Shown here in pieces: positions 15,836 to 31,541 of a stretch of 32,356 nucleotides of DNA (positions within the stretch are counted from its first letter, which is position 1; every line of letters begins with the position of its first letter). The notes beneath the pieces were generated by a model. It was not told where the DNA came from. It saw nothing but the letters and a program-made list of their open reading frames with translations, and did not search any database. The stretch comes from a virus. The stretch lies in the IMG/VR virus record IMGVR_UViG_3300025125_000004, positions 1 to 32,356 of that record, one strand, 5' to 3'. The position numbers were made by a program, and so were the translations under genes.

Positions 15836-16069
15836 TTAGCTCTCATACCACCATGACATAGGGATTTTGCACAACTTCTCTATCCTATACATTGATTCAC
15901 TCTTAGGGGTTCGTGACCCCGTTGTGTACCTCGATAATCGCGATTTAGACCAATCGAGCAATTTACATGCCTCAGATCTCGATAGCTCCATCTGTTCAAT
16001 CCACATTACAAGCGCCCGGCAGCCTCTACTCGGCCCCGGATGGTTTGGTCTTCTTCCTACGTTTCCCAC
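15836..16069 (-). CDS. Small helix-turn-helix DNA-binding protein
   Basis: The 77-aa product has a GTG start at 16069 preceded by AAGGAG with six-base spacing, and overlaps the 3' end of the nuclease gene by 44 bases in another frame. A shorter 56-aa form from the ATG at 16006 lacks a ribosome site. Residues 27-65 (MELSRSEACKLLDWSKSRLS followed by RYTTGSRTPKSE) match an XRE/Cro-type HTH: 'S..EAC.LL..S.SRLSRY..G.R.P' contains the turn and recognition helix. It is the last gene of the leftward replication operon and may be a repressor or regulator of phage transcription. Its stop abuts that of the convergent plus-strand extension. The target is unknown. Confidence 0.62.
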   Translation of the reverse strand: MGNVGRRPNHPGPSRGCRALVMWIEQMELSRSEACKLLDWSKSRLSRYTTGSRTPKSESMYRIEKLCKIPMSWWYES

Positions 16070-16645: not shown

Positions 16646-17503
16646 TTATCCTCCCGCCGTTGCCACTCGCTGGTAGCTCGGCCTAGTTACCGACCTAAAA
16701 ACACCCTCAACCTCTCTGTCCCGCAGCGGCGGCTTACACCTTGCCTTATTCAAGCAATGCAGAAGATTGTTCACCTTCTCATGTGGCAAATCCTCATACA
16801 CCCAGCGCCCGCCCCATTTAGCTAGGAAGTTGTTACGCCCCCCCTCCCCTTCTTCGGGTATGTCCTCAATCCGAACGTGTCTCGCTGGCCGGTCAAATGC
16901 CTGGGGTCCGGATATTGGCTTAGCCGGGTACTGGCGCTCTGTTAACATCTGACGAAGCCACATCGGCGGGGTTACAATCTTTGCATTGTTCCACCAACTG
17001 TAGAGCTTTCCGTTAATGTGCCTAGAAGGGGCTGCCACGATGTAGCCGCCATCTCCCCGAATATCCAGCCCCGGCATCACCCCGGTCTTGTTCTTATATT
17101 TCGAGGTTCCAACCTTGAAAAACAGGTGCCCCCCCTTCCCTGTCTTGGCCACCAGCGTTCGGGGGAGCTTTCCGCATTTAAGTTGCAAATCCTTCAGGCT
17201 TGCTTTCCCAAGGGGCCCGTCTACATCCAGAACCATAATCCCGGAGGCTTGGCCGGTAGCGATGCCGATGTTGGCATTAGGCCACTTGGCCCACCACGCC
17301 CGAATCTTGCTCTCATCTGTGGATGCGCCCCACAGCCCATCATGAAGAAGTTTTACGTCCCATTGGGGGTGCTTACCCGGGCTCTGGCACTCCTTAGCCG
17401 CGCTACAGGTGCAGAATCCCGCCTCATTTATTGTATGAAGCGGGAAAACTGCAAACCCTTCGGTCCCGTATAGCAATGCCCAATTAAGCATCCCCGAAGT
17501 CAT
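16646..17503 (-). CDS. Bifunctional primase/polymerase (Prim-Pol) with PriCT-like C-terminus
   Basis: The 285-aa product starts at the ATG at 17503, which follows AAAGG and overlaps the recT-like gene by 20 bases; M5 is an alternative. Domain order: a Cys-rich loop CTCSAAKECQSPGKHPQWD (31-49), VLDVDG (91-96, the acidic metal-binding pair D93/D95), GKGGHLFFK (122-130) and GLDIRGDGGYIVAAPS (145-160). These are the hallmark motifs of the archaeo-eukaryotic primase-type Prim-Pol domain of phages and plasmids. Residues 220-275 (GRNNFLAKWGGRWVYEDLPH, CKPPLRDREVEGVFRSV) resemble the PriCT-1 module. It would synthesise primers for phage replication. The helicase is a separate gene at 20435-21877, on the same strand but beyond the plus-strand island. 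Confidence 0.87.
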   Translation of the reverse strand: MTSGMLNWALLYGTEGFAVFPLHTINEAGFCTCSAAKECQSPGKHPQWDVKLLHDGLWGASTDESKIRAWWAKWPNANIGIATGQASGIMVLDVDGPLGKASLKDLQLKCGKLPRTLVAKTGKGGHLFFKVGTSKYKNKTGVMPGLDIRGDGGYIVAAPSRHINGKLYSWWNNAKIVTPPMWLRQMLTERQYPAKPISGPQAFDRPARHVRIEDIPEEGEGGRNNFLAKWGGRWVYEDLPHEKVNNLLHCLNKARCKPPLRDREVEGVFRSVTRPSYQRVATAGG

Positions 17504-20434: not shown

Positions 20435-21877
20435 TTAGTTCGCGTACTGGTCACGCTCAGAGATTAACCTGATGTTGCAATTGTAGGTTTTTCCTGCCGC
20501 TGTTTTTTTCCACGTGAGCCCCTTTATGTTTTTAAGCCGCTTACCCATTGTGATTTTCGACACGGGAACCCGCCTCGATTGCAGCGCAAACTCTTCATGC
20601 TCTTTGAACAGGTCTGAAAATGTAGTCTCCCCACCATTGCCGATTTCTAAACAGGTGTGGGCAAAATCACACACCACATCAGACTCGTTCTGCCAGCTTG
20701 TCATCGTTTCTTTGTGAGATGCGATCTCGGTATAGCCGCCGCGCTCAATTAGCCGTGACGCCCCCCGTAGGGCCCACACAATGATTGCAGCGCGTTCTTC
20801 TTCTATGTCTGCCAGGATTTCGGCTTTTGTCCGGCGTGTCGGGGATTCATCAAAATTATGATTGAATTGCATCGTGATGAATCGCCGGAAAAAACCATGG
20901 CTTGTGTCCGATGTGCGGGGGATCTCGTTTGCGCTGAATATGTGTCCGGCAGATGGCCTGATGAAATGGGGCGGCTGGTACGGGAGGCGGGCCTCCAGTT
21001 TGTCACCAGAGATAATCGCCTTGAACACATCAGCACTTTCGAGTGCCGACGTTTCGGGTAACTCGCTAACTATGTTGATACTCGCCCCACCGAGCCCGGC
21101 CACTGAATAGTCCCTGTCCCAGCGCCGGGGGGAGATGAACGTTGCCGTGCCCTCCGGGAATAGCAACTCAGCGATTAACTCGCACAACACCGATTTCCCG
21201 TTACTGCCCGCCCCCAGGAGCAGCAAACACTTCTGATATTGTGTCGCCAGATTCGCAATGCTCGCACCCACAAACTCCTGGAGAACCGCGATTTTAGCGT
21301 CCCGGTCTGCATCCCCGGCCCACAGTGTATCGAGAAAACCGATCCATTTTTCGGGGGGGGCAGATTCGGTGTCCAGGTCGAAATCATATGCAACCGTGGC
21401 CCGATTGCCCGAATCATGCTCATACTGCTCAACCCCCTCGCTGGTCACTTCTACAAACCCCGATGTGCAAGCAATCCCGCGCCGGGGGCTCGCAAAGAAT
21501 TCGTGCGCTTGAATCTCGTATAAGCGGAGCGCCGATTTCGCTATGTTCACGCTGCGCTGATGGCCTGTCCTAATCCGTCTCGGCTTACTATCCCCGCCCC
21601 CGCCAGTTTCCGGGAGCAATCCGTCAAATAGCTGAGCGAGCGTTATTATGTCGTCTATCTCTATCTGCGACCACGTTCCTGTCATGAGAGAGTATTGCCA
21701 GAGGCAGCCGTCAGTTGAAATTATGTCCGTGTCAGATAAACCTAGCTGCGCGGCAACCTGCCCCGCATGGCGAGTGATGTGGCGAGCAATCGCCGTTTCT
21801 GAATCGAAGTCAACACGCTCGTTTAGAATACTTGTTCTCATAGCGGCAATAAAGCGCGGGTGTTGAACAATTTTCAT
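20435..21877 (-). CDS. D5/P4-type SF3 replicative helicase (primase-helicase C-terminal type)
   Basis: The 480-aa product starts at the ATG at 21877 after CGGGAG. Residues 1-180 are the D5_N-like helical N-terminal region (ARHITRHAGQVAAQLGLSDTDIIS...). The SF3 core follows: Walker A GAGSNGKS (222-229), Walker B INIVSE (267-272), then HIFSANEIPRTSDTSHGFFRRF (312-333), with motif C and the arginine finger (R331/R332). This is the P4 alpha / poxvirus D5 type of ring helicase, which unwinds DNA at replication forks. The separate Prim-Pol at 16646 would prime, so the two together resemble a split primase-helicase. The C-terminal 100 residues form a winged-helix-like segment. Confidence 0.88.
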   Translation of the reverse strand: MKIVQHPRFIAAMRTSILNERVDFDSETAIARHITRHAGQVAAQLGLSDTDIISTDGCLWQYSLMTGTWSQIEIDDIITLAQLFDGLLPETGGGGDSKPRRIRTGHQRSVNIAKSALRLYEIQAHEFFASPRRGIACTSGFVEVTSEGVEQYEHDSGNRATVAYDFDLDTESAPPEKWIGFLDTLWAGDADRDAKIAVLQEFVGASIANLATQYQKCLLLLGAGSNGKSVLCELIAELLFPEGTATFISPRRWDRDYSVAGLGGASINIVSELPETSALESADVFKAIISGDKLEARLPYQPPHFIRPSAGHIFSANEIPRTSDTSHGFFRRFITMQFNHNFDESPTRRTKAEILADIEEERAAIIVWALRGASRLIERGGYTEIASHKETMTSWQNESDVVCDFAHTCLEIGNGGETTFSDLFKEHEEFALQSRRVPVSKITMGKRLKNIKGLTWKKTAAGKTYNCNIRLISERDQYAN

Positions 21878-25700: not shown

Positions 25701-25873
25701 CTTATCTCTCCTGTGTGTGTGGGCTAGTGCCCGGGTTAATCAGTGCCCCATCTAAGCGCCGTTAAGTTTCGTTGAATTGCGGCCCCCCCAACCTTGTCAG
25801 CCTAAGGTCTAGCGGGGTTGCCGTGGCATGGTCAAAAACTTTGGTCCAGTAGATGGGGCACCTGTTAAACCGG
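25701..25873 (-). repeat. Leader module copy with a long inverted repeat (GTGCCCCATCTA)
   Basis: This spacer lies between genes 25874 and 25260. On the minus strand it reads GCCGGTTTAACAG, then a 12-bp arm (25850-25861), a 95-nt loop, the matching arm (25743-25754), CTGATTAACCCGGGCAC, a CA-repeat and AGGAGAGA before the ATG. The loop carries further short self-complementary bits (CTGGACCAAAG and a matching GC-rich segment), so it could be a structured RNA. It is the longest member of the leader family. Confidence 0.55.
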
Positions 25874-27691: not shown

Positions 27692-27773
27692 TTTCTCTCT
27701 CCTCTGGGCTAGGTGCCCGGTTTAATCGGCTAACCGGGAGCAATACCCCCGGGCAGCCTGTTAAACCGGTTAC
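27692..27773 (-). repeat. Leader module copy
   Basis: This spacer separates genes 27774 and 27161. It has a perfect nine-base inverted repeat CCGGTTTAA (27717-27725) / TTAAACCGG (27761-27769) that encloses a smaller CCGGG/CCCGG stem, and on the minus strand ends in CCGGGCACCTAGCCCAGAGG-type sequence and a purine-rich ribosome site. It matches the consensus of the other array leaders. Confidence 0.6.
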
Positions 27774-28505
27774 TTAGTTCAGGCCCTCAAGCTCTTTTAA
27801 GGTGGCCAATAATGCAGGGGGGGCATCGGGCAGCTTGCGCGCCGCCTTAACCGCTTTCCACACGATTTCGTGGCTTGAAATATCCCGCAAAAGGGGCCGG
27901 TGATTTACAACGTAATCAGCCCGGGAATCGTTCGGGCCATCGGGGGCGCGGTAGTTCTGGGGAACTTGCTCCGCAACTTGGGCAAGGGCCAGAAACAGCT
28001 CTTCTACTTTCGCCGCCTTTTCCTTGATTTCGTCGCACTCCCTTTTCAGCCCGGCGCTGATTAAGCCGCCAAGAAATTCGTCTTTAAATTCAGGCGATGC
28101 CACGTTGATAGCCTCAAGCATGGCGGCGATCGACAACCTTATCTTCTCCCTGGCTGAATCGCTGATCTTAGAATCAAAGCTAGTGCTGGAATCGCTCCGC
28201 TTGATCCGTGGGTAGCTCTCAAGCTCCAAATGATACAAACAAGCATCGGGAATGACTAAGCGATAACTCCCGGGAGATCCCACGGCCACCAGATGGAAAG
28301 TGATTTGGTCATAATCAACCCGGTTGATTGTCACGGTTTCTTTTATGTCAACGGAAAGCACCGGGATCCCCTTGCCCGTGGTGCGCTTGCAATCAATCCC
28401 CCATCGCTCGTCTGATGTGTACCCCTGCTCTTCTGTCGTGTGGCTGTAAGTTAACTCGAAAGCGCCGATGGGCGAGGCGACGACTAAAACACTCTTGTCT
28501 TGCAT
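27774..28505 (-). CDS. Unknown 243-aa array protein
   Basis: The start is the ATG at 28505 with a CA-repeat AGGAAAAAAA leader. The N-terminal half is beta-rich (SVLVVASPIGAFELTYSHTT, VTINRVDYDQITFHLVAVGS). The C-terminal half is helical (ISDSAREKIRLSIAAMLEAI, ECDEIKEKAAKVEELFLALA, then VWKAVKAARKLPDAPPALLA). No catalytic motif is seen. It is the largest gene of the array and sits between two leader repeats. The helical C-terminus could mediate oligomers. Unknown function. Confidence 0.55.
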   Translation of the reverse strand: MQDKSVLVVASPIGAFELTYSHTTEEQGYTSDERWGIDCKRTTGKGIPVLSVDIKETVTINRVDYDQITFHLVAVGSPGSYRLVIPDACLYHLELESYPRIKRSDSSTSFDSKISDSAREKIRLSIAAMLEAINVASPEFKDEFLGGLISAGLKRECDEIKEKAAKVEELFLALAQVAEQVPQNYRAPDGPNDSRADYVVNHRPLLRDISSHEIVWKAVKAARKLPDAPPALLATLKELEGLN

Positions 28506-30872: not shown

Positions 30873-30916
30873 GTTCAATCCCTTGTGTGTGTGTGCTGCC
30901 CTTTGGCGTTGGAGTC

Positions 30917-30945
30917 ATCTTATAGAGTTGTTTCCCCCGCGTCAA
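30917..30945 (-). promoter_or_regulatory. Leftward sigma70-type promoter of the accessory gene array
   Basis: On the minus strand TTGACG (30940-30945) is separated by 17 bases from TAAGAT (30917-30922), about 45 bases before the first small gene's ATG. The surrounding sequence TTGTTGACGCGGGGGAAACA resembles the rightward promoters at 31470 and 32190. An operator over the -35 is likely. Confidence 0.65.
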
Positions 30946-30965
30946 CAAGTATCTCAGGGGGTGGG

Positions 30966-31225
30966 GGGGAAAATGATCCTTTTGTGGTCCTTTTTCGGGG
31001 AAAATGATCCTTTTTAAAAAGCTAAGTGCGTGTAATTACAGGGGAAGTGATCCTTATGATCATTATGACGCTGTTTTGAAAGTTTTGAGAAAAACACCTA
31101 ATGGGAGCTACAAAATAAGTTAGTCCAAAAAAGGGTCATTTGGATCAAAAGGATCACTTGCTGAATGATTCCGTGGGGTTGGGGGATTTGAAAAGGATCA
31201 CTATTTGGGGAAAAGGCTCACTTTT
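30966..31225. repeat. Iteron-like repeat cluster around an AT-rich centre
   Basis: At least six, probably eight, related 10-18 bp units occur. GGGGAAAATGATCCTTTT is an exact direct repeat (30966-30983 and 30997-31014, 31 bases apart), with a variant at 31041-31057. Three units in the opposite orientation follow: AAAAGGATCACTT (31147-31159), AAAAGGATCACTATTTGGGG (31191-31210) and AAAAGGCTCACTTTT (31211-31225). More degenerate units are at 30985-30996 and 31129-31140. The two groups face each other around an AT-rich stretch (about 31060-31135). It could be a replication origin or a multi-operator. Confidence 0.6.
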
Positions 31226-31254
31226 GTCCGGGAGCTGCGGGAAGGCCTGGGGGA

Positions 31255-31284
31255 TTGCTTGTTTTGGGGGTTGGGGAGTATAAT
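31255..31284 (+). promoter_or_regulatory. Promoter-like sequence with a perfect TATAAT before a strong RNA stem
   Basis: TTGCTT (31255-31260) lies 18 bases from a perfect TATAAT (31279-31284). The expected start, near 31291, is eight bases before the 18-bp stem at 31299. The -35 is weak (three of six bases). The G-rich spacer is unusual. Confidence 0.5.
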
Positions 31285-31290
31285 GGGGGC

Positions 31291-31375
31291 AACGTTTCGG
31301 GGATGGGTCGGCGGCTACCAAAAGACACCCATCTTAAGCCGCTGGCCCATCCCCCCTTCACTCCCCCCGAATCCC
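31291..31375 (+). ncRNA. Candidate structured small RNA
   Basis: The arms 31299-31316 and 31337-31354 pair in a continuous 18-bp stem with two GU pairs and a 20-nt loop. Because GU pairs would be A-C mismatches on the opposite strand, the plus transcript is the likely functional form. G- and C-runs outside the stem could extend it. A promoter ends seven bases before the predicted 5' end. There is no terminator-like T-run after the stem, so the 3' end is uncertain. The RNA itself is inferred. Confidence 0.45.
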
Positions 31376-31469
31376 CCTTGCCACTGCTATCCGCTCCCCC
31401 TCTGGCTCGTGTTGGCCCTTGTGTGGCTTGTGTGTGGCTCTATTAGTTGCGATTAATATCATTCATTTG

Positions 31470-31498
31470 TTGACACGTCGGAAACAAGGACATAAGGT
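31470..31498 (+). promoter_or_regulatory. Rightward promoter before the first small plus-strand gene
   Basis: TTGACA (31470-31475), 17 bases and TAAGGT (31493-31498). The context TTGTTGACACGTCGGAAACA matches the leftward promoter at 30940 closely. The downstream leader has GGCCAAAAGTGGCC, a small palindrome-like hairpin, then a CA-repeat and AAGGATTAGAG before the ATG at 31542. Confidence 0.65.
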
Positions 31499-31541
31499 GT
31501 CCCTATCGGCCAAAAGTGGCCCACACACACAAGGATTAGAG

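Follow-up and report, generated by a model that had tools for sequence, protein, structure and literature searches.

A candidate SaPI/P4-type iteron origin in the divergent early control region of an uncultured phage

We have analyzed a linear stretch of viral DNA of 32,356 bases, hereafter the window, which is the whole of IMG/VR record IMGVR_UViG_3300025125_000004, and propose that a repeat cluster at positions 30966-31225 is the iteron array of the phage replication origin, of the SaPI/P4 type and relocated into the early control region. From sequence comparisons, we put the probability of this reading at about 0.7. It is favoured by the unique, clustered and mirror-oriented sites, by retention of the array in a close relative (L119, whose full contig is L146), and by resemblance of the phage helicase to SaPI5 PriRep1; the best support comes from the comparative evidence. 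An earlier note on this DNA had offered an origin or a multi-site operator, and the same comparisons favour the first half of that claim, leaving the second a minor share of the probability. The cluster is a concrete replication-origin candidate for a group of uncultured, apparently marine phages, and limited literature searches turned up no account of such an arrangement in phages of this kind.

Gene layout and the control gap

The leftward genes of the window encode a Prim-Pol, RecT, a RecE-like exonuclease, a VRR nuclease and an SF3/D5-type helicase, and a gap of ~670 bp (30873-31541) separates the leftward and rightward operons. The rightward genes, from ~31.5 kb, extend off the window end, and the L119 sequence goes on beyond the position matching that end; the record is probably incomplete. 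Since structural genes occupy the left end of the window, we infer that the rightward operon leads round to them. The GC skew turns near 30 kb, where gene orientation dominates the signal, and we rejected it as origin evidence on account of this confounding. Also, a CACACACACAAGG leader with a likely ribosome-binding site precedes the early genes flanking the control region (30640, 30880 and 31523), in L119 as well. The principal features are as follows.

16646-17503, minus strand: Prim-Pol with PriCT_1, proposed primase partner
20435-21877, minus strand: SF3/D5-type helicase, proposed initiator; C-terminal residues ~386-470 modelled as winged-helix-like
30917-30948, minus strand: leftward early promoter-like site, TTGACG/17 bp/TAAGAT, with a 21-bp TTGTT-N11-AACAA site at 30928-30948; conserved in L119
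30970-30983, minus strand: iteron site 1, AAAAGGATCATTTT, part of the 18-bp repeat; 21.2 bits
30981-30994, minus strand: iteron site 2, AAAAGGACCACAAA, weak, within the L119 deletion; 14.2 bits
31001-31014, minus strand: iteron site 3, AAAAGGATCATTTT, part of the 18-bp repeat; 21.2 bits; 15/15 identical in L119
31023-31040, plus strand: control-region element TAAGTGCGTG (family consensus TAAGTRCYTG) and adjoining palindrome TGTAATTACA
31044-31057, minus strand: iteron site 4, ATAAGGATCACTTC; 17.9 bits
31053-31066, minus strand: degenerate site 5, ATAATGATCATAAG; 10.2 bits; a clear site stands in its place in L119
31065-31125, no strand: AT-rich centre around the dyad (~31102), poorly conserved (37/61 with L119)
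31129-31142, plus strand: iteron site 6, AAAAGGGTCATTTG; 18.2 bits
31138-31151, plus strand: degenerate site 7, ATTTGGATCA, in 9-bp register with sites 6 and 8; exact GGATCA at 31142
31147-31160, plus strand: iteron site 8, AAAAGGATCACTTG; 21.0 bits
31161-31188, no strand: conserved non-repeat spacer of the right arm (26/28 with L119), mirroring the position of the TAAGTGCGTG element
31191-31204, plus strand: iteron site 9, AAAAGGATCACTAT; 20.5 bits
31211-31224, plus strand: iteron site 10, AAAAGGCTCACTTT; 19.7 bits
31279-31354, plus strand: TATAAT (31279-31284), then an 18-bp hairpin (31299-31316 / 31337-31354); folding z -5.06
31467-31499, plus strand: rightward early promoter-like site, TTGTTGACACGTCGGAAACAAGGACATAAGGTG; conserved in L119

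Topography of the repeat array

The array comprises 8 strong AAAAGGMTCAYTT sites and 2 degenerate ones between 30970 and 31224, and is absent elsewhere in the record. With a weight matrix made from the units, 8 sites scored at least 14 bits, all of them in this interval, and the top score outside the array was 12.4. The strands of these sites run ----++++, such that both sides read outward, which upholds the earlier description of GGATCA-core units in two opposing groups; exact GGATCA occurs six times in the array, at 30974, 31005 and 31048 on the minus strand and at 31142, 31151 and 31195 on the plus strand. The 18-base direct repeat described at the same time, with its 31-base spacing, was likewise found: GGGGAAAATGATCCTTTT lies at 30966-30983 and at 30997-31014, an offset of 31 bp. 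Pattern AAAAGGATCA has 4 copies in the 32,356-base record, all within the array (the reversed control pattern, 0), and an unbiased 8-mer cluster scan returned the array as its top cluster, with 5 copies in 227 bp against a maximum of 3 in simulated sequence. Viral contigs searched for the exact pattern of two spaced units gave no match.

On the left, successive sites are spaced by 11, 20 and 43 bp; on the right, the intervals are 18, 44 and 20 bp. The two degenerate sites adjoin inner sites of the array. Three site pairs are mirrored about a dyad near 31102, an arrangement matched by random positions and strands in 257 of 20,000 trials; the mirror symmetry, at p ~0.013, is by itself suggestive, not overwhelming. 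The centre, which had been called AT-rich, is indeed AT-richer than the window (~48%), but only moderately so, at ~60-68%. A GATC sequence is not obligatory in the units, GGCTC and GGTC variants being present. We considered and rejected a GATC cluster of the Dam/SeqA type, since L119 retains sites as GGCTCA without GATC.

Conservation and turnover of the array among relatives

L119 has the same control region as the window, at 81.5% identity, and the array is kept. The right-arm sites, site 3, the segment 31019-31043 (23/25) and the right spacer are better kept, and the array centre and the segment 31359-31466 (64/108) less so. GGATCA and GGCTCA are exchanged at sites 9 and 10 with the consensus retained; on the left, L119 has lost one site, and its inner pair has been reshaped into two clear sites. 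By their sequence, these changes look like selection on a binding consensus plus site turnover.

The same units could be traced to a close relative, L119/L146, but not to deeper ones: GGATCA arrays were not found in capsid relatives having the same helicase. The earlier note would have taken absence of the repeats from close relatives sharing the replication genes as telling against the proposal, an argument that would misfire, as several deeper relatives have different arrays in the same place. In the unbiased scan, the strongest 8-mer cluster lay either in the control gap or in a long intergenic gap close by in G001, G008, G012, G013 and G017, the repeats differing in sequence lineage by lineage; in G016, G015/G018 and L121, the clusters in these gaps were weaker. 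Within the window's clade, here defined by a helicase at least 35% identical to the window's (n=20, window included), the control gap holds the strongest cluster in the window, in L146 and in the same five genomes, and no strong array was found on the available sequence of G007, G020, L154, L161, L167, L170 and L171. A second repeat family, GTATGGCA(AC), is common to the distant relatives G012/G013/G017 and G015/G006 (L095:3426-3552, L099:4684-4945, L087:14184-14256) and lies ~0.6-1.5 kb from the conserved element described below.

Promoter-like sites and a separate operator candidate

Near-identical divergent promoter-like sites flank the array, as the earlier placement between leftward and rightward promoters had it. 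They form a 33-bp inverted repeat, 76% complementary (30916-30948 and 31467-31499), each arm of which reads as a promoter. A 21-bp TTGTT-N11-AACAA site (TTGTTGAC...GGAAACAA) covers the -35 region of both (30928-30948 and 31467-31487); it is kept in L119 and is found also upstream of an early gene of G016 (G016:C1:26682-26702). A scan of viral contigs for this site returned 9 stretches, including G016 and the L119 contig; the remaining stretches were not tied to this phage group.

These observations bear on the possibility of a multi-site operator or enhancer, an array at which a phage regulator on the repeats would control the two divergent early promoters and which would take no direct part in replication. 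The position of the array between two matching promoter-like sites is what such an operator would have, its spacings lie near whole helical turns, the unit cores are near-palindromic, and the phage encodes an HTH_3 protein (15836-16069) with weak matches to phage transcription-regulator families. Yet the separate 21-bp site overlaps both promoters, is kept in L119 and recurs in G016; the array ends ~240 bp short of the rightward promoter; and the arrays that homologues have immediately 3' of their helicase gene, presented below, would be left unexplained. From its sequence and position, the 21-bp palindrome-like site is a better operator candidate for the HTH_3 protein than is the array, for which that protein, earlier named for footprinting, is a poor candidate binder. 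We consider the operator reading unlikely.

Between the array and the rightward promoter lies a GC-rich hairpin (31299-31354), and the segment around it, 31273-31358, is 79/86 identical (92%) in L119. An Rfam search gave no match, and a terminator was rejected because a scan gave no terminator-like site at the hairpin. Possibly, the segment is a structured or small RNA, an antiterminator-type site, or a part of the origin.

The helicase and known replicons

The best profile match of the window helicase was SaPI5 PriRep1 (7ola; E 1.9e-24), and a model of the helicase (mean pLDDT 83.8) aligned with 7ola over 398 residues at a fold Z of 28.1 and an rmsd of 8.3. By both sequence profile and fold, SaPI5 PriRep1 is the closest solved relative, and it belongs to a family of self-loading initiators that use iterons. 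The C terminus of the model has a winged-helix-like order of elements, and the model aligns over most of 7ola_C; DUF5906 was found in 13 of 13 aligned helicase members and D5_N in four. Where PMC7581432 deals with SaPI Rep and Cch2, the C-terminal domain is described as binding iterons directly downstream of the helicase gene, and Cch2 as requiring the iteron AAGTG (PMC7581432).

The SaPI replicon (SaPI5 PriRep1, or SaPIbov1 Rep and its ori) and the window have in common a homologous D5/SF3 helicase, in the window a putative initiator, as judged from 7ola and DUF5906, and a cluster of short, specific, iteron-like repeats, lineage-specific in sequence and unique in the window record, for which the C-terminal domain is the putative recognition part; moreover, in distant phage homologues an array follows the helicase gene immediately on its 3' side. 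In contrast, the window array is ~9 kb from the helicase gene, in the divergent early control region, and the repeat score in the 500 bp after the helicase stop is 0. Also, SaPI5 Rep holds primase and helicase domains that are two separate proteins in the window. The window array would work like a SaPI/P4-type iteron origin but lacks the SaPI-type placement directly downstream of the helicase gene, for which reason we regard it as a variant rather than a plain member of that type. The SCCmec Cch2 origin is similar in its D5-type helicase, whose C-terminal DNA-binding domain acts on AAGTG direct repeats (PMC7581432), and dissimilar in having three iterons only, directly downstream of the gene, on a chromosomal cassette.

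The P4 alpha protein, invoked in the earlier note, is an initiator helicase whose winged helix binds origin repeats (described in PMC4234260). It is a fair analogy, drawn on initiator helicase and origin repeats, but SaPI5 PriRep1 is closer by profile and fold; P4 alpha unites a Toprim primase and a helicase in one protein, whereas the window has its Prim-Pol (16646-17503) apart from its helicase (20435-21877). The pRN1-type Prim-Pol/SF3/winged-helix replicon has the same three activities, and a stem-loop of 100 nt that lies downstream of its replication gene serves as origin in place of iterons (PMC4234260). In the window, no inverted repeat of at least 14 bp was found within 500 bp downstream of the helicase gene, and the hairpin is instead at 31299-31354, near the array. 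By analogy, pRN1 counts against the iteron reading, being a related replicon type without iterons.

Arrays beside helicase genes, and apparent change with the C-terminal domain

We examined 54 helicase loci for a strong lineage-specific array within 500 bp after the helicase stop, and observed one at 18 of 34 more distant homologues and at 0 of the 20 loci of the window's clade. Clusters of at least 4 copies starting from -100 to +400 bp of the stop were present at 16 of 33 non-redundant distant loci, as against a mean of 1.09 and a maximum of 6 when clusters were shifted at random (20,000 trials). Because of these two results, we conclude from sequence that arrays go with this helicase family, gene-adjacent as in SaPIs, and that an apparent move has brought the array into the divergent control region in the window's clade. 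The putative link between array and helicase in the window itself is drawn from this family pattern, the gene being ~9 kb distant.

Near pairs of loci also suggest that the repeats follow the C-terminal domain. L218 and L220/L223 are 98% identical in the helicase core and 53-54% in the C terminus, and have no repeated 7-mer in common, although the units called different are close (TGGAACA in L218 and TGGCACA in L220/L223, a one-base difference); L220 and L223, with C termini 92% identical, have 5 repeated 7-mers in common. In the window's clade, all 9 of 9 pairs with C termini at least 84% identical have control-region repeats in common, and sharing is rare among pairs with less similar C termini. 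Across the 18 downstream-array loci, repeat sharing and C-terminal identity were uncorrelated overall (Spearman ~0), and we therefore limit the claim to near pairs, in which the repeat sequence appears to change with the C-terminal domain. Common ancestry explains a part of this, and the repeats common to close relatives could reflect ancestry alone. The pair L188 and L155 (core 96%, C terminus 70%, no shared 7-mer) was set aside as a clean swap and counts weakly, as the units look related (TTTGCTGC and TTTGCTAC) and the L155 array ends at the contig end.

One rule would link these arrays of unrelated sequence: where an array lies depends on the helicase clade, and what sequence it has appears to depend on the C-terminal domain. 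If true, it would let origins be predicted from metagenomic contigs, and near-identical cores with different C termini, as in L218 and L220/L223, are natural pairs for the study of initiator specificity.

A conserved element in the control gap

The consensus TAAGTRCYTG is common to several deeper relatives, usually in the control gap and sometimes in two copies; the window copy, at 31023-31032, has one mismatch and the L119 copy none. Among 80 helicase loci gathered independently of the element, it was present in intergenic DNA at 10, whereas permuted motifs were present at 0.72 loci on average and at no more than 3, and L150, L151, L153 and L155 are new carriers from that set. These loci were collected with an alignment as query; the window helicase alone retrieved no locus from the same viral-contig collection. 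A limited literature search found no description of the element.

A split origin can be pictured from these data, in which the helicase or another conserved protein recognises TAAGTRCYTG, and the array binds a different, rapidly evolving phage protein. The excess of the element at helicase loci is in keeping with this, as are its persistence through complete turnover of the surrounding repeats and its inclusion of AAGTG, an iteron required by Cch2, a related helicase (PMC7581432). However, AAGTG is only 5 bases, the element is absent from G001, G007, G020, G011 and G023, all of which have the helicase, and the joint change of arrays and C-terminal domain speaks for the arrays. TAAGTRCYTG also resembles an IHF core, and binding by a host protein is possible; an IHF site as sole explanation was rejected, since only some copies match the IHF consensus. 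We regard the split origin as improbable.

More tentatively than the iteron-origin reading itself, and at rather less than even odds, we suggest an origin in two parts: a slowly evolving TAAGTRCYTG core, common to distant phages that retain this helicase, and around it iteron arrays whose turnover goes with that of the helicase C-terminal domain. This origin would have left the 3' side of the helicase gene for the divergent early control region, where replication initiation and the transcription switch would share one site.

A working model for initiation at the array

If the array is the iteron origin, the helicase would bind the AAAAGGMTCAYTT sites through its C-terminal winged-helix-like domain, and the two outward-pointing groups would each load a helicase, to the left and to the right of the moderately AT-rich centre. 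Melting would take place at that centre, and the Prim-Pol would prime two forks, for bidirectional replication. As the array sits between two early promoters, initiation and early transcription are probably coupled.

Partition-like sites and other repeats

A partition or centromere-like array, or another DNA-tethering site, has a precedent of sorts in G001 (IMGVR_UViG_3300038315_000952), which has two exact canonical parS sites, TGTTTCACGTGAAACA, at L081:4519-4534 and G001:C1:36596-36611, one of them adjoining its own array. The window array has no parS-like match, the best in the window having 3 mismatches and lying in the structural-gene region, and Pfam scans of 20 window proteins gave no partition gene; we think this reading very improbable for the window. 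In G001, the array that adjoins the one site is a dense series of TGAACAnnTGTTCA palindromes with a 15-17 bp period, and its parS sites may indicate use of a host ParB or a plasmid-like state.

Elsewhere in the window, long imperfect inverted repeats with CCGGTTTAA-type arms lie between early genes at 25731-25873 and 27704-27782, and are perhaps attenuators or terminators.
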